Positions 6,469 to 18,576 of a stretch of DNA of 64,000 nucleotides are shown here, one piece after another. Source of the stretch: an uncultured Lachnospiraceae bacterium (lineage in GTDB: Bacteria; Bacillota; Clostridia; Lachnospirales; Lachnospiraceae). Position 1 is the first letter of the stretch; every line of letters starts with the position of its first letter. The stretch covers positions 62,001 through 126,000 of the forward strand of contig ONKG01000002.1 in the NCBI GenBank assembly GCA_900318375.1. The letters run 5' to 3'. The notes below the pieces were generated by a model, which made no database searches, was not told where the DNA came from, and saw only the letters and a list, made by a program, of their open reading frames with translations. A program made the translations under genes and the position numbers.

Positions 6469-7378
6469 TCAGACAGGGATCTTTCCGGCGCCGATGTCTG
6501 AATGCAATATATGTACAATGTGTCTGGTCTCTGCCCGGATCTCTTCATGCGGGATTTTCCCGCTCTTTTGTTCGGGATGTGCCATGTCGAAGCGCGCCAG
6601 GAACTCGTCAAAAAGCTGCTCTCCTTTTTTGCGTGCCTCGGCTGCCTCTTCCAGAGTTGAAAAGCTGCCCAGGTAACGGGTCCTGCCCTGGAAGGTGATC
6701 TGGGCGCACCACTTGCCGCTGCGCTCGGATTTATAGACGCCGCGGACACCGCTGGTATTGTTTTTGGCGATCCGTCTGCTGCGGATATTCTCCACACATG
6801 TTCCCTCGATGAAGTGCTTGGCTGCAAAGGGCGTATTGCGGCAGCCGCAGCTGGTGGTGTGTCCGCTCATGAGACTGGACTGACAAACACTTGTCTCATT
6901 CCCGCAGCTGCACCTGCATTTCCAGTAGTGTTTTTTTTTCACGTTTTCCGTCATAGGCGGTCACCGTCAGTTCTCCGAATTGCCTGCCTACCCAGTCCTT
7001 GAGCGGCGGACGACTCAGGCACCCGCAGCTGCGCCGGTAACCGTTGACCAGCTGACCGGCAGGCACAAGGATTGTGTTCCCGCAGTCGCAGACGCAATTC
7101 CACAATATCCGGCCGTGCGCATCCCGCTCCTGAGCTATAGAAAGGACCTGCAGTTTTCCGAAACGTCTTCCGGTCAGGTCCTCATAGCGGGGCTTTTTCT
7201 CCTCGCAGCCGCAGGAAGTCATCCAGCCGTTTTTAAGAAATCGCGACGCGGCGTGCACGGTATTACCGCAGTCACACCTGCAAATCCACACGGTATAGCC
7301 GTTTTTTCTTTCATTGGTCGATTTTATGGCAGTCAATCTGCCAAAGCGCATGCCTGTAAGATCGCTCTTTTTGCTCAT
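6469..7378 (-). pseudogene. AP2-domain protein with Cys repeats, frameshifted at an A9 run
   Basis: The ATG at 7378 follows AGGAGG by 11 nt. The first frame (to a stop at 6896) holds two complete copies of a module LTGxRFGxL ... WxCxCDCGN ... SCGC and the start of a third. The third copy continues in the next frame (6954 to 6469) with WKCRCSCGNETSV and SCGC, then an AP2/ERF-like DNA-binding domain (NTSGVRGVYKS, GKWCAQITFQGRTRYLGSF, EEAAEARK). The frame change falls at nine consecutive T on the plus strand (6931-6939). Removal of one base joins the frames into about 302 residues. AP2 modules with such ribbons are common in phage and homing-type proteins of Lachnospiraceae. Either the gene is dead, or polymerase slippage on A9 makes a fraction of full-length protein. 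Confidence 0.75.
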
Positions 7379-8011: not shown

Positions 8012-9598
8012 TTACTGTACATCCATGCGGCGGCGGGTTACAAGAACAACACCTGCGCCGATGACGAGAATCGCACCAACAACGTAGAAGATAGTTGTGC
8101 CGATGCCGCCGGTGGAAGGAAGCTCAGTGCCACTGTTATTGCCAATTTCGCTGGTAACTGTCAGAGTACTTACATCTTCGGGATCACCGGCAATTACAAC
8201 TTCTACAGGGTCTGTCAGCAGGTTATATCCATCCGGTGCAACAATTTCAATAAGCTCATATGTGCCATCTTCAAGGCCGTCAAAGCTTGCTTCACCATTA
8301 TCATTTGTAGTGACAACAGTAATTTTATCTGCCTCTCCGGCAGCAATCAGATCTGTGACTGCATCAGGATCAACTTCAATCCACTCTGTCTTGGCTTTCG
8401 TCTCTCCTTCTGCAGCGGTAAACTTGTAGTAGTTGCCGGCTACAGCAGTTGCATTATCAGTTGTATTGGGAGTCTTGCAACGAAGGACAAACTGTGCTCC
8501 TGCAAGTTTTGTGTCCTTATTTTTGTTATCAACCTTCAGAATCTGAATCTTTGCAGAATAGGTCTCGACTTCTACAGGGGGAGTTGTTCCTGTGGATTCC
8601 TCATCCTTAGGATTGTTATTATATGTCAGGGTTGCAGTGTTATTGTCAATCTTAGTAACCGCATCGCTATTTACAGTTGCAGTATAGGTGATTGTAATAG
8701 CATCGCCGTATGTATACTTAGCGACTTTCTTTTCACCTTCTGTCTTCAGCATATCAATGGTGAGCTCGAAGTCAGGATTTGTTGTAGAAACGGTATAATC
8801 TGCTGCACCCAAAGTTGTTTCGCCAATCTTGACAGTAATACTGTTAGTTCCATCAAAGGTCAGACCAGTACTTGTTGTATCAGCAAACATCATCTCATAT
8901 TTGGTGTAGCCAGTGGTGTCCGGAACAGAACTTGTCAGTGTATAAGTAACTGTCTGTCCAACTTCTACAGAAATATCATCTGCTTCCTTATCAAGTGTAG
9001 GGTACTTGGCTTTCTGAGCGATTTCTGCATCAGGATTGGTGCTTGTGATAGAGACAATGCTTGTATAATCATCAATGTTAATGCTTGCACCTACAGGGTA
9101 TACCATGTAGTAACCGAGATCGAGATCACTGAAAGTCACCTCCTCAGTTCCTTTCGCTACTTCCTGAGAAGCTGTTGCATCAACGGGAGTAGTCATTGCA
9201 TACTCATAAGCCGCCTTTGCAAATGCTGCAACATTCGTCTCCGTAATGTTGATATACTTTGTTGTGCCATCAACAGCAATCTGATTAAGATCACCAGGAT
9301 TTTCATCAACAATATATTCTGCTCCAGGGCCGCCTGCCGCAAAGAAGCCAGTCCAGTCAGCATTAATTGTGTATGCAACAGCGGTATATTTCCCGTCATC
9401 ATCTTTGTTGCCATCGGTGGTCATATCAAAGATTCTGTAAGCTTCATAGGTAGTCGTATCTGCCTGAGGGTCTGTTTTTGCACCTGTCACTTTGATGCTT
9501 CCTTTAGGAGCCTCATCCGCAGCAAAGGCGCTGATACTCATGCTCATAACCATTGCCACAGCAATAAGCAGAGCGAAGATTTTTTTCATTCTCTTCAT
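8012..9598 (-). CDS. LPxTG-anchored isopeptide-forming pilin (major subunit type)
   Basis: 528 residues. A Sec signal (MKRMKKIFALLIAVAMVMS...SAFA, residues 1-26) is followed by pilin Ig-like domains. A region around YPTLDKEADD resembles the lysine-bearing pilin motif of Gram-positive shaft pilins. A SpaA-type domain near the C-terminus has the E-box YELIEIVAPDGYN. The protein ends with LPSTGG, a transmembrane segment and RRR. It should be polymerised by a class C sortase and attached to peptidoglycan. The ATG at 9598 follows GGAAG by 7 nt. It is the last gene of a two-gene pilus operon behind the large adhesin; no sortase lies in this window. Confidence 0.9.
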   Translation of the reverse strand: MKRMKKIFALLIAVAMVMSMSISAFAADEAPKGSIKVTGAKTDPQADTTTYEAYRIFDMTTDGNKDDDGKYTAVAYTINADWTGFFAAGGPGAEYIVDENPGDLNQIAVDGTTKYINITETNVAAFAKAAYEYAMTTPVDATASQEVAKGTEEVTFSDLDLGYYMVYPVGASINIDDYTSIVSITSTNPDAEIAQKAKYPTLDKEADDISVEVGQTVTYTLTSSVPDTTGYTKYEMMFADTTSTGLTFDGTNSITVKIGETTLGAADYTVSTTNPDFELTIDMLKTEGEKKVAKYTYGDAITITYTATVNSDAVTKIDNNTATLTYNNNPKDEESTGTTPPVEVETYSAKIQILKVDNKNKDTKLAGAQFVLRCKTPNTTDNATAVAGNYYKFTAAEGETKAKTEWIEVDPDAVTDLIAAGEADKITVVTTNDNGEASFDGLEDGTYELIEIVAPDGYNLLTDPVEVVIAGDPEDVSTLTVTSEIGNNSGTELPSTGGIGTTIFYVVGAILVIGAGVVLVTRRRMDVQ

Positions 9599-9834: not shown

Positions 9835-12800
9835 TTAGTTTAACCTCCTTTCTCTACGCCTCATCCTGAAGCCGTACATTAAAGCGGATACCATGATCAG
9901 GGCTATGCCGCCTAATGTATAAAGGAATGTTCCGGGTCCGCCCGTGTGGGGAAGTTCATAGCCGGTACTGTTTCTGACCCATACAACGTAATTGCCATTT
10001 GCATCTTTTTGTGCAGTCTGCGGAGCTCCGCCGTCGTATTCAGCCTGTATATACGTCACGCCTCTTGAAGAAACAGTTACTTTGACAGCACTTGTCAATT
10101 GATTATATCCATCAGGAGGTGCTGTCTCGGTAAGGTCGTATGCTGTATCGCTAACAGGCAGTTCGATCACTTGCGTGTAGCCATCCTCGCCTGATGTCAG
10201 TGTTTCATTATTAATTGTAAATACTGCATCTGACAACGGTTTTGGCGTACTCTCAGAGTCTGTCTTATAGACAATTACTTTTCGATTAATGATCTTATTA
10301 GTTACACGAATATTGTTTTCTGCATTGCCAATAACTATTTTTTCATCTGATTGAGCATTGTCGTGCCAGAACTCGTAACTGGGCTGCATACCAAGCGTTC
10401 CCGTTTCTGTCAAATCATAGGTAGTTCCCGCAGCCATATTTGTGAAACGCAGTGTATACTGTGATGTAATTTTGACAGTTCCGGTTACAGTACCTGTCGT
10501 ATCATCAAAGTCAAGATAGAACCAACCGCCTCCATCGTAGTTTTCACCCTGACCGATTCTGCCATACTCTGAAGTCTCGCCAGAATCCTCAAGAATACCT
10601 GCATCGATCAGAGCATCATCATAGATTACGTTGTTCTCTTCATCGTAGTATCGGTACCAGGCTACGCTCGGTATAAGTACCGTTTCCTCATCGTCATCGT
10701 AATAGTTTTCTACATGCGAGAAATCAGGCACTCCGTCCTTCATCGGGACTGTCAATGTAACTTCTGCATCAAATACATCGGTGTTGTCTTCCACTTCGAT
10801 GTCATCTTCGTCGACGACTTTTTTATAAATATTGATACCGCCTCGAAGGGTATTCTCGCCCTCAAATGTAACCAGTGGAACATTGCCGACAACAGAAGCT
10901 GTACTGCCGCTCACGATCTTTCCATCATCATCAACCTGGAATGATACATTCTTTAAAACACCATTCACTAATGCAGGGTGATACGTGATTGTGTTGAACT
11001 CAAAGTGTGAATCCGTTTTGGTTTCTTCTAAAACATACTCATGTCCATCGTTCAGAACATAATATTGAACTCCATCAATAGTAACCGTTCTATAGGAACC
11101 GCCACCCGGATAGTTAGATGTCAGCAGTGCCGGCGCTATATTAATTGTTTTTGCCGGCCATTCGTATTCACCTGTTGATTCATTCAATACCGGTGTGAAG
11201 GTATATGCTTTATAGAACTCTCCGTCTTCAAGAAGATTCAGCGTTACACCATATATTTCTCCTTGCGCTGCTGCATCCTCGATTAGTTTTTTCAGCTGTG
11301 AAGGATCAAGACTATCGGACCACGACTTTCGCACCTGGAAATTGGAGCCGGTAAGCACCATGGGATCCGGAATATCCAGTGCAATCGGTACACCTTTTTC
11401 ATAAGTTGTGGTAGTTGTACCGCCGCTCTCCTCTGTGCTGGCAACGTAATAATCCGCCGTCTGATACGTATTAGACATTGCTGCAAAGGTACCGTTCGGA
11501 TATTTCACAATATTCGGATACTGAGATACACCATTACGGTAATACGCCACCGTTGTACCGTCCGGCATATAAACAGGATCCTGTGAGCCTTCATCCCAAG
11601 TAACGCCATCAATGCCATTGTTCAGATTAGTTACATAATCATAGGCATCCTGATCAGGCCAAACCTCAAAACTGACAGTATAAGTGGCATTATTTTCCAG
11701 TGTTCCCAACGGTCCGAGATCCCATTCGAAATCGCCGTCATTTGAGAGTGTTGCAATCGGCATGTAATAGGTAATGCCGTTATAAGCAGCAGCATACACT
11801 TCTGCACTTGCATCTTGTTCTGTAGGCGGATTCCCATCTACAACTTTTTTGTAATTGATTGTAGTTATACTTCCTGGAACAGTATCCGAGCCAAACTTAA
11901 ACGTTGCAGCTCCACTGCTATCCACCGTAACCGTATAACCGCTCGAAGTACCCCCGGATTTCTTATAAGTAAGGCCGCCAAGCTTTCCAGCTCCGATATT
12001 AGCAGTTAAAGCCGTGTGTGTTACATCCTGAGCAATACCATCCTGGATATCAACCCCTGCAAGGGCAAGGCTGTTTGAAATAACATCAGCAATGTCGTTA
12101 AGTGCCTGAATCAATGCACTTGTTTCTGCCGCAGGATAATAATATGTTCCTTTAGTATCTTTGTTTTCCGTTTGATTAACACTGCGTCCGTAGTATGCAA
12201 AGTTTGTCAGATAATTCAGAACATCTACGTTACCGTACATACCGATAGAATAGAAATTCCATCCATTTTGAACAATCTGGCGTGCTTCATCAGTTGCGGA
12301 CATATAGTTGTCGGAAATCCGGTAATAGTATGGACTGGTTGTAGTTGCGTTTGCTTCGTTATCATAGCGAGAAGTCTTTGTAGCATTTGTACTCGGATTA
12401 CCATCTGTCAGGAAGATAATGTATGTAGCATCGCCGTCCTGATGCCCATTAGCTGCAGTAATTGCAGTCTGAAGTGCACCCTCCCAGTTTGTACCGCTAT
12501 TACGTGCCGCATCTGCAATTAATCTGTTAAAAGATCCTTCCGGATAAATTCCCTGTGCGTCTGCCGTGCCGGCCGATGAATACCACGAACTTGTAGTTAA
12601 GTCTTTATTAAATGTCACAAGACACATTTCAACAAGATCAGGGTTATCTTCGGTATTCAATCTCATCAGGTTGTTAGAAACATTCTGAGCCGCACTCACA
12701 GCATTTGAAAAACGTGTTCCTCCTCCAGTAACACTAGTATTCATACTGTTGGATGTATCTAATATCAGAACAATGTTTGCACCGTGAGACTCGGTCCCTG

Positions 12801-15800
12801 TATCTGCCTCGCCAGTAATAGAAAGGTTCAGTGTAAATGTACCATCTGTATTAGGCGTAACTGATTTTCCTGCAGATGGAACACCTATACTAGGCTCATC
12901 TCCACCTCCGCCTCCGCCGGAACCGCCTCCGCTGCTGCCATAGGCATCACCATATACAACATAAATATCCGTATCACTGGTGAATTGCGTGTATTCATGT
13001 TGTCCATATACCTGATACTCCCAGGAACCGCCGCCTGCTCCGCGCAGCTCCGGAACGATCTGCGTTCCGGAAGTGCTGTTAAGATAGGTATTGTGATAGG
13101 TATATCCCGCCAAAGGCTGAACAATATCAGTGATAGCAGTCACACCGCTTGAAGTACTGTCCGCCAGAGTTGTGCTCGGGATAATATCTTCGCCCGACTC
13201 TTTCACATAGTGAATAGTGATGGTTGCAGGTTCCGCTATTTTTGCAAGATAGATTGTGGCGTTATTTGTCTGGTTGCTCAGTGAAAAATTGTTATTATTG
13301 TACTGCAGATACCTTGTCCCGGTTCCCGTGCCAGTACTTAATCTATTATTACTATATGACCAGGTAGACGCCTCATTAACGCTTGTTGTAGTAGCAAGTG
13401 ATCCATTGTTGTTTCGAAGATAATATGTCGTGTTACCAACCGCATAACTAAGTCGATATCCACCTGTAACAGCAGTAAATGTCCAAACAACATTGTCATT
13501 TTCTGAAGTCACATTATCGTTAGCTATTGAAACACTCTGCCTCCCCAAAGTACCATTATTATAATTAAGAGCGTAGTCACTATACCCATCTCTGTAGATG
13601 ATATAATCACCTTCACCCACAGCACTCCTTGCTGTGCCATAAACGGAAAAACTCTCAGCCTCGTATACAATCTCTGTCCCGGCATCGTTGACAGCTACAT
13701 TTTCAACAATTTCCGTTCCTTCATCTGAAAAATGAATGACATCCAGAACGCTTCCGTCATCAGTATTCATCGGCTCCATATAAGTAATAACAACTTCTAC
13801 CGGAGCCTTCGGCTCGATCTCTTCCTCACCATGCATGATACTGATGTCAAAAAAGCGGATAAAGGTAAGTCCCGATTGAGCATTTCCCGCCACTTGATAT
13901 GTGACAGTATTGGATGCTCCATCACCTTCATCTGTCCTTTCAGAATCCACTTCTTCCGCAGCTGCATCAGCCTCTTCAGAATCCGCTTCTTCCGCAGACG
14001 CATCTTTGTCGCTTTCAATTTCTGCTATCGGAACATCACTTGTCCCTAACGCTTCCTGCGTCTTGGCTCTGTAATCATCATATTCAGATGTACCGCGCAG
14101 AATCTCTCGCACCACCAGTTCGGATCCATTCGGAATGTCTGCCTCTTTCGTATAATTGACAGAAATCCTGTATGATTCTCCATCAGAGGTAGTTAATGTG
14201 GTTTCAAGTGTCTCCACTCCGACAATGCCGTATACAGAGAATCCGTCCGCTTCAAACTGGACGGTATCGACTGCTTTCGCCTCGTCCTGAGATTCCTCAG
14301 ACTTGCTGAACTCAGCCTTGTCCATAATTTCGACTTCTTTATCGTCTTTATAATGGAGAAGCTGGGTGTCATCTGTATTGGTCTGCTCAATACCTGTAAA
14401 GGTAATCTGTACGTTCACCGGAGCCTGGGGCTCAACCTTCTCGCCATCAACAAGGATGGTGATGTCAAAGAATCTTGCCTCGTTGACAGATTTATGCTCG
14501 TCAACAGCACCCTTTGCCTGCTCGAGATAAGATGCGTATTCCTCGGTACCTTTTTCAATCTCACGGACTGCAAGTTCTGCGTTATCCGGGATCTGCGCAG
14601 CCTCTGTATAGGATACAGTGACGGTGTAGTCAGAGCCCTCACTTGTAAGGGCCTTCGGCTCCTCTTTCTCGACAGGCGCAGCCAATGTAAGTGTGCGGCT
14701 GATCTCGTCGATATTCCTGTCGTTGTTCTCTTTTACGAAAACAACTTCCGCTTTGCTGTATTGGATCTCTTCTGCTGTGCCGTCTTCCTTTTCAACTGTC
14801 TCTTTTTCGGTCTTCTCAAAATCAATCTGTGCTGTTGTCAGGTCAAAGGTGAAGAAGCCTTTGACATTCCTTCCTTCCGAGGCAAGTTTGCCCGCCTCGT
14901 CATAGGAGATCTGGTTCTTCTCGACGGTATAAGGAATGAAGGTGAAGATCAGGTCCTGCCCTCCATCGTTGGTCTTCTCCACCTTGACAGTCGCGGAGAT
15001 ATATTCGTCACCCGCCTTCTCGTCGGGGGTGCGGCCGCCTTCAATGGCTTCCGCGCCGAGATATTTGTCGTGCTCGCTGCCGTACTTGGAGGCTGCGATG
15101 CCGTTCTCATATTTATTGATATCCTTGATCTGCTTGTCACTCAGTTCCAGGCCTGCAGGCAGCCTGTAGCGTGCTTCCGCATTGGTCTCGTTGAGAGAGC
15201 CTGCAGGGATCTCATAGGAAAGATAGACGCGAACGAAATCTTCCGGAGCAAGGACAGTATCAGAACTAACCTTCTTCCAGTCATCAACTGAATCGGAAGT
15301 GATGTTCTCATCCTCTTCTGTTTTTTCTACATGGTAAAAATAGAAGTCTGTCTTGCCTGTGAGGATCTCATCGAAGTCAATGGGATCAAGTGTGGGAATC
15401 TGGAACTCCGCAGCTGTTTCTTCTGTTGAGGCAGCTGCAGCTGCCTCTGTCGCCTGGGTGCCGGATTTACCGGACTGGTCAACAGCAGCCTGGTCTGCAG
15501 ACTTCTGTGTCTCGGCAGTCTGAGCTTCCTCCTGGGCAGGCTCAGACGAAGGCTCTGCATCAGCCTTTCCTTCTGCGCTCTTATCTTCCTCTTCCTGAAC
15601 CTCTTCAGCCTCTGCGGCGGGAGCTTCTTCCCGTGCAGACTCGGCCGGAGCTTCTTCTACAACCTGCTCCGCTTCTTCTTTCTCATTCTCATCAGAAACA
15701 GACGAGCTCTCCTCTTCGGGGATCTCAGCAGCTTCTTCCTTTATAGTCTCTTCCTCTGCAGCTTCTTCGGCGGCAGGTTCCTCCACCTGAGCCTCTTCCA

Positions 15801-16026
15801 CAGTGCTGTCCGCCGCGGTCACAGAGGCGGCAGAAGCAGTCGCCTTGAACTGCATCTGCTCATATGCGATGCCCGGCTCCCGGCTGGCTCTGGAAACATC
15901 CAGTGTGATTGCAGGAAGCACCAGGGCATAAGTCGTGATGAACACGACTATTGCCGAAATCACGGAAATAATCTTCTTTCTGGTCTCTCTGGTTTTTTTC
16001 TTTTTGAGATAATCTGAATGTTTCAA
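9835..16026 (-). CDS. Giant von Willebrand-A, LPxTG-anchored pilus tip adhesin
   Basis: About 2063 residues. After a short cytoplasmic Lys-rich start comes one membrane segment (IISVISAIVVFITTYALVLPAITLD), then a Glu/Ala-rich low-complexity region (about residues 45-210). Several repeated domains follow (three share FSVYGI/FSVYGT and FDISI blocks), then a Gly-rich linker near residue 1035. The VWA domain at about 1085-1300 has an intact MIDAS (DTSNS). SpaA-like domains carry E-boxes YDLTETGTLG and YDLTETAPPDGYN, and the tail is LPHTGG-transmembrane-RRRERR. It should sit at the pilus tip and bind host or bacterial ligands. I chose the TTG at 16026 because GAGGAAG lies 9-10 nt upstream; a TTG at 16074 is the alternative. 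Upstream lies a probable invertible region. Confidence 0.88.
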   Translation of the reverse strand: MKHSDYLKKKKTRETRKKIISVISAIVVFITTYALVLPAITLDVSRASREPGIAYEQMQFKATASAASVTAADSTVEEAQVEEPAAEEAAEEETIKEEAAEIPEEESSSVSDENEKEEAEQVVEEAPAESAREEAPAAEAEEVQEEEDKSAEGKADAEPSSEPAQEEAQTAETQKSADQAAVDQSGKSGTQATEAAAAASTEETAAEFQIPTLDPIDFDEILTGKTDFYFYHVEKTEEDENITSDSVDDWKKVSSDTVLAPEDFVRVYLSYEIPAGSLNETNAEARYRLPAGLELSDKQIKDINKYENGIAASKYGSEHDKYLGAEAIEGGRTPDEKAGDEYISATVKVEKTNDGGQDLIFTFIPYTVEKNQISYDEAGKLASEGRNVKGFFTFDLTTAQIDFEKTEKETVEKEDGTAEEIQYSKAEVVFVKENNDRNIDEISRTLTLAAPVEKEEPKALTSEGSDYTVTVSYTEAAQIPDNAELAVREIEKGTEEYASYLEQAKGAVDEHKSVNEARFFDITILVDGEKVEPQAPVNVQITFTGIEQTNTDDTQLLHYKDDKEVEIMDKAEFSKSEESQDEAKAVDTVQFEADGFSVYGIVGVETLETTLTTSDGESYRISVNYTKEADIPNGSELVVREILRGTSEYDDYRAKTQEALGTSDVPIAEIESDKDASAEEADSEEADAAAEEVDSERTDEGDGASNTVTYQVAGNAQSGLTFIRFFDISIMHGEEEIEPKAPVEVVITYMEPMNTDDGSVLDVIHFSDEGTEIVENVAVNDAGTEIVYEAESFSVYGTARSAVGEGDYIIYRDGYSDYALNYNNGTLGRQSVSIANDNVTSENDNVVWTFTAVTGGYRLSYAVGNTTYYLRNNNGSLATTTSVNEASTWSYSNNRLSTGTGTGTRYLQYNNNNFSLSNQTNNATIYLAKIAEPATITIHYVKESGEDIIPSTTLADSTSSGVTAITDIVQPLAGYTYHNTYLNSTSGTQIVPELRGAGGGSWEYQVYGQHEYTQFTSDTDIYVVYGDAYGSSGGGSGGGGGGDEPSIGVPSAGKSVTPNTDGTFTLNLSITGEADTGTESHGANIVLILDTSNSMNTSVTGGGTRFSNAVSAAQNVSNNLMRLNTEDNPDLVEMCLVTFNKDLTTSSWYSSAGTADAQGIYPEGSFNRLIADAARNSGTNWEGALQTAITAANGHQDGDATYIIFLTDGNPSTNATKTSRYDNEANATTTSPYYYRISDNYMSATDEARQIVQNGWNFYSIGMYGNVDVLNYLTNFAYYGRSVNQTENKDTKGTYYYPAAETSALIQALNDIADVISNSLALAGVDIQDGIAQDVTHTALTANIGAGKLGGLTYKKSGGTSSGYTVTVDSSGAATFKFGSDTVPGSITTINYKKVVDGNPPTEQDASAEVYAAAYNGITYYMPIATLSNDGDFEWDLGPLGTLENNATYTVSFEVWPDQDAYDYVTNLNNGIDGVTWDEGSQDPVYMPDGTTVAYYRNGVSQYPNIVKYPNGTFAAMSNTYQTADYYVASTEESGGTTTTTYEKGVPIALDIPDPMVLTGSNFQVRKSWSDSLDPSQLKKLIEDAAAQGEIYGVTLNLLEDGEFYKAYTFTPVLNESTGEYEWPAKTINIAPALLTSNYPGGGSYRTVTIDGVQYYVLNDGHEYVLEETKTDSHFEFNTITYHPALVNGVLKNVSFQVDDDGKIVSGSTASVVGNVPLVTFEGENTLRGGINIYKKVVDEDDIEVEDNTDVFDAEVTLTVPMKDGVPDFSHVENYYDDDEETVLIPSVAWYRYYDEENNVIYDDALIDAGILEDSGETSEYGRIGQGENYDGGGWFYLDFDDTTGTVTGTVKITSQYTLRFTNMAAGTTYDLTETGTLGMQPSYEFWHDNAQSDEKIVIGNAENNIRVTNKIINRKVIVYKTDSESTPKPLSDAVFTINNETLTSGEDGYTQVIELPVSDTAYDLTETAPPDGYNQLTSAVKVTVSSRGVTYIQAEYDGGAPQTAQKDANGNYVVWVRNSTGYELPHTGGPGTFLYTLGGIALIMVSALMYGFRMRRRERRLN

Positions 16027-16153
16027 TTTAGCCACTTCCTCTTTTCTCACACTTGTGGTCAATTCCGTAGTCAAACAGAATACTCACATGGACAGTTCTA
16101 TAGCTCACCAGGCAGTCCGAAAATCCTGAAGGGTTTTCTGCCGCTCTGCTGTT

Positions 16154-16179
16154 TACCGCAAAATTACTATTATGCAGTA
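16154..16179 (+). other. Left recombinase-type site (inverted repeat of a putative invertible segment)
   Basis: Two 11-bp arms, TACCGCAAAAT and ATTATGCAGTA, flank a TACT core. Reading the opposite strand at 17157-17132 gives TACCCCATAAT, TACT, ATTATGCGGTA: 23 of 26 positions identical and extending by GA at the right. Arm length and short core are those of tyrosine recombinase core sites. It lies about 130 bp before the adhesin start codon. Confidence 0.75.
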
Positions 16180-16431
16180 GAACGGGCTGTCCCTTTGATG
16201 CAGCAACTGTTATGACAGCAAATCGTTCACAGACAGTATTCATTCGCAAAGGTGAGCTTTATATATAAGGAAGAAATGCTTCACTGATCGTGTTCATTAG
16301 AATCAAATACAGTCCCGGCAGCCGACAGTACTTTTTGAAAGGATATGGCGGCGGGGACTATTTGTTGTATACAAAAATATTTAAGAAATGGGTATTTTAT
16401 AAATAGATCGGAACAAAACCCGGCGGGAGAT

Positions 16432-16697
16432 AATTATGCGGTAATCCTTTTCTCCGCAATGATTCGAAGGGACAAGGCCGGCATATTATGAGGTTTTGTG
16501 AGTTGGGACAAGACTGCCGGTCGGTGAATTATGAGGTATTTAGAGAGGAGAAACGTTGAGGGGAGGGTCGGGAGAAAATGATTATGCGGTAAAAAGATCA
16601 AAGATGAGGCCGGGCTCAATCCCGGGCAAATAATTATGCGGTAATCAAGAGATGTGAAAGATCCCGGCAGAGTTCCGGGGCAAGGATTATGCGGTAA
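16432..16697 (+). repeat. Array of six short ATTATGCGGTA motifs
   Basis: Motif copies begin at about 16432, 16484, 16527, 16581, 16632 and 16686 (spacings 52, 43, 54, 51, 54). Cores are ATTATGCGGTA or ATTATGAGGT, usually preceded by a CCGGG-rich block (for example CCCGGGCAAATA). The core equals one arm of the recombinase-type sites. All copies point the same way. Intervening DNA is unique, partly hairpin-forming and non-coding. Confidence 0.7.
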
Positions 16698-16736
16698 AGC
16701 TTGTGCGAACAGAAACGAGATAATGGTTTCGGGCAT

Positions 16737-16757
16737 AAAAAAAGCCCTTTCGGGCAG
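16737..16757 (-). terminator. Intrinsic terminator inside the invertible segment
   Basis: On the minus strand GCCC-GAAA-GGGC is followed by seven T. In the present orientation it would stop transcription coming from the recombinase gene before it reaches the adhesin gene. Confidence 0.7.
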
Positions 16758-17131
16758 ACGTTTCTTCTATAATTTAGTAATCGATTTAGTGATCACAAGA
16801 CCTGAGCTCCGGCCAGGCCGGATGTCTGGCTGCCGGAACAGGCACACAAAGAGCGGCAGTCCTGTCCGAACTGCAAAAAAGTCAGAGTTTTACTGTTATA
16901 GATTTGCCTTTTGACGGTTATTGTGACACAAAGGGCTTTATAATTGGCTCATGATACGAAAATTGGATTTAGATTGCGCTTTTGTGCATTTTTTGATATC
17001 CTTGTGTCTATATCTCTATTCCAATTTCTATATCTATTTTAAATTTCAATAATCTTGAGCTGTAAAATGTTCCGAAGAAGCGGATCTGCCGGAGACGGCA
17101 GAAGAGGGCATGCACTGCAAGAGTTTTCATC

Positions 17132-17157
17132 TACCGCATAATAGTAATTATGGGGTA
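17132..17157 (-). other. Right recombinase-type site (inverted repeat)
   Basis: TACCGCATAAT (17132-17142), AGTA, ATTATGGGGTA (17147-17157): two 11-bp arms with one mismatch around a 4-bp core. It is in opposite orientation to the site at 16154 and 46 bp behind the recombinase stop codon. Confidence 0.75.
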
Positions 17158-17202
17158 TTTTTTATTGTTCAAAATCCGGCCGTGTATGTAATTAACGGTC
17201 AG

Positions 17203-18054
17203 CTATACTGCATGCAGGCTTTTTTCAACTTTGTCTAATATATCCAACTGACTCTCACAGCTGATCAGTGTGTAAATCCGTGTTGTATTAATGTTGGCAT
17301 GTCCGAGTAAGTCAGCAAGACGGACAATGTCCTTTTCCGTCTTGTAATAATTGACAGCGAAGAAATGTCTTAAATTATGGGGGAATATCTTCTCCCGGTT
17401 CACTTTGGCAGCTTCACTAAGCGCTTTCATACGGTGAAGTATGTTGCTGCGGTCAATAGGCCGCCCGGTTCTGGTAACAAAGATGCTGCCTGAAGTGATT
17501 TTCCGTTCCCTGCAGTAACGGCGGAGTTTTTTGCACAACTCCGCAGGAATCAGCACCTGCCGTGTCTTTCCCTTGAGGGATACCAGCGCACGCCGGGTAC
17601 TTACCGAAGCAACTGTAATAAACTGAAGCTCACTGATGCGAATTCCTGTTGAAGCAATGGTCTCCATGATGTTGAGGATCTGCAGATCTCCCTTTTCCTT
17701 CGCAGCTTTCAGAAGTCTCCGATATTCCTCTATAGAGAGCTCTCGCTCCTCATTTCTGAAAGAAGCGCGCTGTGTTTTGAAGGTCCTGATCCGGCAGTCC
17801 TCCCACCCCATCAGTTGAAAAAATTTATTTAGTGCCGAGAGCATGGAATTTGCACTGCTCAGCCTGTATTTTTCCCGGAGCATCTGCTTGAAACGGATCA
17901 CATTGCTTTTGTCAAAGCGCCCGTCTGATCCAAGCCATCTCCAGAATGTCGTGACGTCCCGAACGTATTTCTCCACGGTCAAGGAACTTCTCTCAAGTTC
18001 CGTCAGTTTTTCAGTAAATAACGCGATAGTCCTTCCATCGATACAGTGTTCCAT
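17203..18054 (-). CDS. Tyrosine recombinase (XerC/D-like, likely DNA invertase)
   Basis: 283 residues from the ATG at 18054, which has GGAGGG 4 nt upstream (an ATG at 18066 is in frame but has a poor site). The N-terminal SAM-like core-binding domain covers residues 5-90. The catalytic domain has the full set: Arg in TGIRISEL, Lys in SLKGKTRQ, HNLRH, GHANINTT and the nucleophile Tyr in RIYTLIS. Size is that of XerC/XerD or FimB-type enzymes without a phage-integrase arm-binding domain. It transcribes toward a pair of inverted 26-bp sites placed between it and the pilus operon, so local inversion is its most likely job. Integration of a lost element is the alternative. Confidence 0.9.
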   Translation of the reverse strand: MEHCIDGRTIALFTEKLTELERSSLTVEKYVRDVTTFWRWLGSDGRFDKSNVIRFKQMLREKYRLSSANSMLSALNKFFQLMGWEDCRIRTFKTQRASFRNEERELSIEEYRRLLKAAKEKGDLQILNIMETIASTGIRISELQFITVASVSTRRALVSLKGKTRQVLIPAELCKKLRRYCRERKITSGSIFVTRTGRPIDRSNILHRMKALSEAAKVNREKIFPHNLRHFFAVNYYKTEKDIVRLADLLGHANINTTRIYTLISCESQLDILDKVEKSLHAV

Positions 18055-18576
18055 GATACCCTCCATAAATAACCTGAAGGCAGTATAAATATACGCTTCT
18101 CGAATGGATAAGGTATTGTCATGGCAGTAATTACTTCAGTATTATTTCTCCCGCATTGCAGAGATAATAATGCTAATCCTGTGATGTTGCAGTGCTATCA
18201 CACACCTTAAATGTTATGTATTCTTGGCGTATATTATATGGAAGCTATGGCTTTCGAACAATGTTTAATCAATCACCTCCCGTTTATACTTTCTTACTAT
18301 TGTGTACAGACATATTGCATTATACAAGCGCAGACAAAATTTATCCATATTAATTTACTTATTAACGTATTTTTTATCCCATTTAGCATATGTGCAGAGA
18401 AGATTTGACTTTCACAAACAGCTCCGGCATTCAGATTCATGAAGGTATTCCTGACAGAACCGGTCATGAGACATGACATTCCGGTACAGAAAAAAAGAAG
18501 TGAAAAAAGCGGTATTCTTTTGTGCACACGGCGATTTTTTGTACACGTTTGATGTGTACAGGAAATCTTTCTCAAA
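18055..18576. other. Gene-free, AT-rich spacer
   Basis: No frame here has a ribosome binding site and a plausible protein. A 6-bp hairpin GTACAC-GTTTGAT-GTGTAC lies at about 18541-18559. The recombinase promoter presumably lies at 18060-18250 but I could not fix it. Confidence 0.4.

Follow-up and report, generated by a model that had tools for sequence, protein, structure and literature searches.

Is the DNA between a tyrosine recombinase gene and a giant adhesin gene of an uncultured Lachnospiraceae bacterium a phase-variation switch for pilus genes, and if so, which of its parts would do the switching? The initial annotation, made from the letters of the 64,000-nucleotide stretch analysed here (the window), had proposed such a switch. 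The window is part of contig C81 of an assembly of 3.9 Mb in 193 contigs.

Inverted sites between a recombinase gene and an adhesin-pilin pair

The features that define the locus are the following.

16154-16179, no strand assigned: recombination site L, adhesin-proximal and inverted relative to site R, TACCGCAAAAT-TACT-ATTATGCAGTA
17132-17157, no strand assigned: recombination site R, recombinase-proximal, TACCGCATAAT-AGTA-ATTATGGGGTA
16180-17131, no strand assigned: putative invertible segment between the sites, 952 bp, with a reversed counterpart in G054:C108
17203-18066, minus strand: complete XerC/XerD-like tyrosine recombinase of 287 aa, assigned by domain and structure-sequence alignment
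9835-16074, minus strand: giant adhesin with VWA, SpaA, DUF7604 and a C-terminal LPHTG anchor, the presumed switched gene
8012-9598, minus strand: SpaH/EbpB-type major pilin with an LPSTG anchor, the presumed second gene of the switched operon

The inverted site pair sits between the XerD-like recombinase gene and the adhesin-pilin pair. Both sites are 26 bp long and consist of two 11-bp arms around a 4-bp core, and repeat and consensus searches agree on the two positions that the initial annotation had given. The sites lie in a 28-nt inverted repeat (16154-16181 and 17130-17157) that is 89% complementary. Alignment also bore out the claimed agreement at 23 of 26 positions; the cores are identical and the three differences fall in the arms. 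With up to three mismatches allowed, the consensus TACCGCATAAT-AGTA-ATTATGCGGTA matched sites L and R and nothing else in the 64 kb, and it had no match in 100 shuffles. The distances needed small corrections. The segment measures 952 bp between the sites, or 978 bp from site start to site start, where about 980 bp had been given, and the distance from site R to the end of the recombinase gene is 45 bp and not 46 bp. Within the segment, which the initial annotation had called non-coding, the mechanical ORF list contains one ORF of 100 aa and one of 86 aa. An Rfam match to rli33 over 15900-18500 scored 18.4 against a gathering score of 46 (E 0.027) and was taken as chance. A search of viral contigs for the junction pattern gave no matches.

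The recombinase gene is complete, as had been claimed. Its ORF is intact and both Xer-type domains are present, Phage_integrase (6e-27) and an N-terminal SAM-like domain. The protein aligns with XerD 1a0p through the GxR, HxLRH, LGH and IYT motifs, which we take to hold the catalytic residues, and also with XerA and with a XerC-like protein of known structure. Its similarity to FimB-type invertase models is weak. The closest named locus, in the uncultured Lachnospiraceae MAG RUG12566, encodes a recombinase that is 99% identical, and a search of a phage collection returned 83 records, every one below 60% identity. Matches at five clade loci in four of 62 genus genomes are 84-100% identical and lack internal stops. 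By its place and its domains, this recombinase is the presumed invertase of the two sites.

The pilin matched NF033902 (4.2e-41) and TIGR04226 (1.4e-19) and, with its LPSTG anchor, is an LPxTG major pilin with an isopeptide domain. Judging from an upstream AGAGGAAG, the true start of the adhesin is perhaps a TTG near 16026. No sortase was found in or beside the pilus operon; there are three sortase matches in the genome and none on the contig of the window. Weak AP2-domain matches below the Pfam cut-off lie at 6469-6954 of the window, near the pilus genes, and a similar one lies directly between switch and adhesin in a relative (L036:9977-10936, genome G018).

Site pairs beside related recombinases

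In a family set of 397 genomes, 93 had a recombinase match at E 1e-30 or better, and among the matches listed, 20 were examined as long stretches and 14 as short loci. At 35 of 39 recombinase loci, an inverted pair of like architecture lies downstream, with the near site at most 130 bp from the end of the match. Pairs were selected by their arms without regard to the 4-bp core, which is identical within all 35; four of these pairs belong to the clade of the window and are not independent. Controls gave a pair in 1 of 114 distant windows (core agreeing at 2 of 4 positions) and in 3 of 780 shuffles. The identity of the cores supports strand exchange. This looser search was given 42 loci, three of them too short (L071, L089 and L091), and its misses among the 39 examined were L036, which has one degenerate arm and whose pair was read by eye, L041, L066 and L074; it ran without L032, L035, L037, L042, L043 and L076.

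A strict search found a pair in 28 of 48 rows (47 loci), with 25 distinct cores and arms that differ at 69 of 616 positions. Its misses comprised contigs ending early (L032, L035, L037, L076, L089 and L091), a split recombinase (L042), four loci of G210 (L083, L084, L086 and L088) and L036 (two rows), L039, L041, L061, L066, L069, L072 and L074. Of the 28 strict pairs, 23 enclose segments of 173-420 bp; the segments in the clade of the window measure 752-965 bp and that of L038 1985 bp. In the locus G054:C8 both cores read AGTT where the rest of the clade has AGTA. Cores that stay identical within a pair while the arms drift, and two cores that changed together, are what active site-specific inversion leaves.

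The genes behind these switches were scanned at 23 loci, L068 and L075 excepted, by means of a single selected ORF per locus that was not in every case the first. Nine of the 23 ORFs (L034, L036, L038, L040, L078, L079, L080, L081 and L082) encode a surface protein of pilin, LPxTG, VWA, SpaA or DUF7601 type, so the pairing with an adhesin is recurrent and not unique to the window. The others include GLUG-motif, M26-peptidase-like, TIR/TPR, PRD antiterminator and SIS proteins, a signal peptidase, a manganese pump, a GGDEF protein and one weak DUF2272 match, and five of the 23 scanned ORFs had no match in Pfam.

Some relatives have several such loci or several such genes. The genome G210 has at least six recombinase loci of this family (L083-L088), and all six have an inverted site pair; the six pairs have five different cores, one of them shared by L086 and L088. 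Two tandem recombinase genes precede a single switch in G018 (L036:7148-9393), which recalls the FimB/FimE pair. In L084 (G210) and L090 (G314), the switch contains or adjoins runs of N.

Orientation of the segment in related genomes

The genus set of 62 genomes includes four that hold the five clade loci, namely the window, G043, G005, G054:C8 and G054:C108. The first four share one orientation and G054:C108 is reversed. In the alignment of G054:C108 with G005, the flank next to the recombinase is 91% identical on the plus strand, the inner part is 75% and 82% identical on the minus strand, and the 28-bp site is precisely where the plus and minus alignments overlap. The window, G043 and G054:C8 give short minus-strand matches to the inner part (28-70 bp), the one at the site included. 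Of the two arms at this junction, the outer one (GGGG type) is still in place and the inner one (CAG type) is displaced, which is the outcome expected of strand exchange within the core. The contig of G054:C108 ends inside the segment, so its promoter, adhesin and other junction are out of view, and apart from the C8 locus, the other contigs of G054 showed no further promoter-like block, outer L arm or second junction.

The initial annotation had named a single orientation in all relatives with the recombinase as part of what would speak against a switch. Instead, G054:C108 is reversed at the site, and a hairpin and a promoter-like block inside the segment are turned in G018 too. Together with the identity of the cores within pairs, the reversed related locus supports the phase-variation reading and an inversion of the segment that is seen between related genomes (MAGs).

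An array of phased half-sites inside the segment

Six copies of a recombination-site arm lie inside the segment.

16433-16443, plus strand: array half-site 1, ATTATGCGGTA
16485-16495, plus strand: array half-site 2, ATTATGAGGTT
16528-16538, plus strand: array half-site 3, ATTATGAGGTA
16581-16591, plus strand: array half-site 4, ATTATGCGGTA
16633-16643, plus strand: array half-site 5, ATTATGCGGTA
16686-16696, plus strand: array half-site 6, ATTATGCGGTA

The internal half-site array of the initial annotation is thus real. Its six members are direct repeats that lie mostly about 53 bp apart, which is five helical turns. With at most one mismatch, ATTATGCGGTA has 10 matches in the window against 0.62 expected; nine of the 10 fall in this locus, and five of these are array members, the sixth member having two mismatches. 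A further match to ATTATGCGGTA on contig C114 was taken as chance, as the reversed control also gave two in this genome.

Comparison of the clade separates what is kept from what drifts. The five clade loci, in four of the 62 genus genomes, contain 25 array units. Pairwise identity is 89% over the 11-bp half-sites, 37-38% over the 4 bp that flank them and 27-30% farther out, so half-site and spacing are conserved in DNA that otherwise diverges. Neighbouring half-sites are 43, 51-54 or 63-64 bp apart, close to 4, 5 and 6 turns of 10.5 bp. On seven distinct spacings, which come from related loci and do not make the test fully independent, the Rayleigh p is about 0.007, and whole turns appear only at a period near 10.5. 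The phasing of the array against site L was not relied on (five distances, p 0.04 at 10.5, sensitive to the period, with G043 off by 3.5 bp). Copy number ranges from 2 to at least 7, with six copies in the window, two in G043 and at least seven in G054:C108 before its contig ends. Near-identical loci differ in array length by whole units. Over 860 aligned bases, the window and G043 have 23 mismatches; their alignment also has four small gaps (1-3 bases) and a single gap of 200 bp, equal to four array units.

Arrays of this kind were found in this clade only. Of the 28 strict pairs, those of the four clade loci alone enclose more than one internal half-site. Half-site pairs 30-60 bp apart were found in four of the 62 genus genomes, all of this clade, with one place in the reversed control. 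Family-wide, they were found in five of 397 genomes, namely that of the window and four with single matches (G115, G106, G200 and G357); the reversed control gave six places in five genomes, so the four matches outside the clade look like chance. The pair in G115 was rejected as an array; it is intergenic and has no recombination site. The array is the unusual part of this switch.

Because each half-site is a match to a recombination-site arm, the likely ligand of the array is the same recombinase. What binding would achieve can be read in two ways. The array might be a decoy or a regulatory element that titrates the recombinase or acts as a transcriptional roadblock and takes no part in synapsis, which we regard as possible but not the likelier outcome. 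The half-sites have no partner arm or core and should therefore not recombine themselves, and a copy number that varies from 2 to at least 7 is easier to reconcile with titration than with a fixed architecture. A decoy, however, would need neither the spacing by nearly whole turns nor the constant direct orientation, both of which suggest an ordered complex. The array is probably a place where the recombinase is predicted to dock for loading or synapsis, which we prefer to titration. Taken further, this docking reading would make the array a recombinational enhancer built of the recombinase's own half-sites. Recombinase monomers would line one side of the helix at intervals of about five turns, and the resulting scaffold would synapse the sites and set the switching rate or the ON/OFF bias, which would turn array length into an evolvable dial on phase-variation frequency. 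We offer this extension as a conjecture that may well be wrong.

Two further observations concern the half-sites. Many of the 25 half-sites have a weak preference for AGR about 15-17 bp upstream. Its three positions have pairwise identities of 0.60, 0.41 and 0.40, where most other flank positions have 0.22-0.37, and it may mark an additional contact or the site of a partner protein. In G054:C108, another small pair of TTTATGCGGTA half-sites, spaced 51 bp apart, is located between ORFs about 7.5 kb away from the switch (L032:2989-3051).

A promoter-like block and putative terminators of the locus

Four elements of the locus bear on transcription.

16909-16959, plus strand: near-invariant promoter-like block, TTGACG at 16911-16916, N22, TATAAT at 16939-16944
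16737-16755, minus strand: intrinsic terminator GCCC-GAAA-GGGC-T7, between the promoter-like block and the array
16311-16364, plus strand: conserved hairpin AGTCCC...GGGGACTATTTG, which folds on both strands
17132-17163, plus strand: site R followed by T6, a fold whose run of at least five T is kept in four aligned loci

The 51-bp block is invariant but for one base in the four collinear loci, of which the window and G043 are nearly identical, while much of the remaining segment diverges among them. With up to three mismatches, it was found in these four clade loci only when the 62 genus genomes were searched. In the assembled window the block points away from the adhesin. The more distant G018, whose recombinase is 66% identical to that of the window over residues 51-280, keeps TTGACG-N22-TATAAT, and there the motif faces a 319-aa gene and a 2468-aa adhesin. 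The hairpin at 16311-16364 has the same pattern in G043, G054:C108 and G018 and a variant in G005, and in G018 both the hairpin and the block are oriented opposite to those of the window. With block and hairpin turned alike, G018 appears to be ON and the window OFF. We consider that the window was probably assembled in the OFF state, with the block as the candidate promoter.

Several observations weigh against these assignments. The hexamers of the block are 22 bp apart, which is nonstandard for sigma-70, and a consensus promoter scan missed the block. Two other candidates face the adhesin, one at 16658-16630 (9/12, spacer 17) downstream of the minus-strand terminator and one at 17066-17036 (10/12, spacer 19) upstream of it. 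The region has four promoter-like matches against 5.7 in shuffles, so these two candidates are probably chance, but they still weigh against the OFF assignment.

The promoter might need a regulator as well. Both in G018 (L036:9780-9835) and in the window (16909-16944), GAC motifs recur at intervals of about 11-12 bp up to a point 10 bp before TATAAT, and they resemble what we take to be boxes of OmpR/PhoB-type response regulators. The paired GAC repeats in front of the -10 element suggest that an activator acts at the block.

The relatives also speak to the promoter. Promoter pairs scoring at least 10 were found in 11 of 27 whole segments against 5.4 expected. Orientation was counted in 22 of the 28 strict pairs, after five segments above 450 bp and one with N had been dropped. 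At the near end of these segments, sigma-70-like pairs of at least 9/12 point outward in 16 cases and inward in 4, and at the far end outward (ON) pairs and the inward control are equal at 5 each, with no excess. The near-end excess supports an invertible promoter that was mostly assembled OFF.

The minus-strand terminator that had been annotated within the segment was confirmed as GCCC-GAAA-GGGC-T7. Its stem of four pairs is shorter than the five pairs that our terminator scan needs, hence it was unlisted there; counterparts exist in G005 and G054:C8. Such a terminator could itself be the switch. As in CwpV (described so in PMC2784873), the promoter would then lie outside the segment on the recombinase side, and the terminator would block read-through in one orientation only. 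The conserved terminator agrees with this, as does the shared direction of recombinase and adhesin, which makes read-through possible. A near-invariant promoter-like block inside the segment, its G018 counterpart facing the adhesin and the outward promoter-like pairs at the near end of the relatives' segments speak against it. The hairpin at 16311-16364, moreover, folds on both strands, and read-through may therefore be hindered either way. On balance, we consider a switch that works by its terminator unlikely, and favour the invertible promoter. Beside that promoter, the hairpin is possibly a weak two-way terminator, and the fold at 17132-17163 could end the OFF-phase transcript of the plus strand before it enters the recombinase gene in antisense.

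Proposed mechanism

The reading that we consider highly probable is an invertible-promoter phase switch that is flipped by the local XerD-like recombinase, with the array as extra docking sites. We infer that this recombinase would bind both inverted 26-bp sites and exchange strands within the 4-bp core, whereby the segment of about 980 bp would flip. The segment would carry an outward promoter in the block 16909-16959. In the assembled orientation, this promoter would point toward the recombinase and the switch would be OFF, with the minus-strand terminator stopping read-through from the recombinase toward the adhesin. After inversion, the promoter would lie upstream of the adhesin-pilin pair and the switch would be ON. 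The six direct, helically phased half-sites would serve the same recombinase for additional docking, and through the array it would probably be loaded or assembled into a nucleoprotein complex that governs how fast, or with what bias, the switch flips.

Two other explanations deny that the sites switch genes at all. They could be fossils, that is, remnants that recombine no longer; their arms differ at three positions and four of the five clade loci share an orientation. One locus is nevertheless inverted at the site, all 35 pairs have kept identical cores despite drift in the arms, and the other clade recombinases are 84-99% identical and free of internal stops, which makes this very improbable. 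Least credible is that the sites belong to a mobile element or a dif-like dimer-resolution system, which a Xer-like recombinase might suggest, as they are inverted and not direct and in the relatives sit between the recombinase and downstream genes, often surface-protein genes. Both explanations were rejected on the intact recombinases, the reversed locus and the core identity in pairs.

The invertible-promoter reading gives a testable pilus phase switch in an uncultured Lachnospiraceae. It also links a group of Xer-like recombinases that is found widely in the family with switches that adjoin the recombinase gene and have a common site architecture, in which the sites can be predicted from sequence alone by their similar arms and a core that is mostly private to the locus (25 distinct cores in 28 pairs). 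If the array tunes inversion, it would be a counterpart, built for a simple tyrosine recombinase, to the accessory-site synapsis known from resolvases, and the switching rate might be read from array length.

Comparison with known systems

Recombinase-linked invertible promoters are already known. In Clostridia, inverton group 139 and invertase group 35 have tyrosine recombinase genes nearby, and 32 of 33 members are in Clostridia (PMC11892184). The inverton of Clostridium sp. D5 in this group has 26-bp repeats about 205 bp apart (PMC11892184), a repeat length and spacing like those of the relatives described here; the likeness is one of layout. The window differs in its 952-bp segment and its half-site array, and the main text of PMC11892184 makes no mention of pilin, sortase or half-site.

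Switches on sortase-anchored surface proteins are not new either, given a precedent in Streptococcus zooepidemicus. SZO08560, described in 2009, encodes an LPXTG protein with an invertible promoter and an adjacent recombinase gene (PMC2654543). Reads show both orientations of its segment of about 115 bp, which is bounded by 10-bp repeats (PMC2654543). As in the window, a promoter segment between short inverted repeats lies upstream of an LPXTG surface protein, and the cargo of one relative studied here, L081, has the same Listeria-Bacteroides repeat domain as SZO08560. SZO08560 differs in its repeat sequence, its shorter segment and its single surface protein, and the passages of that source on the locus mention no pilin pair or half-site array.

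The fimS switch with FimB/FimE and the ipuS switch are invertible promoters of surface adhesion genes flipped by local tyrosine recombinases, with repeats of 9 bp and 7 bp, respectively (PMC6083910). Compared with these systems as outlined there, the window has a 287-aa Xer-type recombinase with a SAM-like domain and a Gram-positive LPxTG cargo. In Clostridioides difficile, the CwpV/RecV system has 21-bp repeats 195 bp apart, its promoter outside the segment and recV elsewhere (PMC2784873). It shares with the window the terminator logic and the placement of inverted repeats ahead of the gene for a giant clostridial surface protein, as far as that account describes them, but its recombinase is remote, whereas the gene in the window ends 45 bp from site R. 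In Bifidobacterium, sortase pili are phase-variable by a different route, replication slippage (PMC9187656).

The anatomy of the array has a parallel outside gene switches. In Tn4430, the direct repeats DR1 and DR2 act as accessory sites. The IRS of this transposon, at which TnpI acts, has a core site IR1-IR2 and the direct-repeat subsites DR1 and DR2 (PMC7157771). The likeness to the window, an inverted core site with direct repeats of the same half-site, is one of anatomy alone. In Tn4430 two repeats lie next to a transposon resolution site, whereas here 2 to at least 7 half-sites, mostly about 53 bp apart, lie inside an invertible gene switch. A search of titles and abstract openings in the open-licence literature found no case of a half-site array in a phase switch, which is weak evidence of absence. 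The initial annotation had called unfamiliar both the pairing of a local recombinase with a VWA/LPxTG pilus and the internal array. This was right only in part. The pairing has precedents in PMC11892184, PMC2654543 and nine of the 23 relatives, and it is the phased half-site array that sets this switch apart within a known kind.
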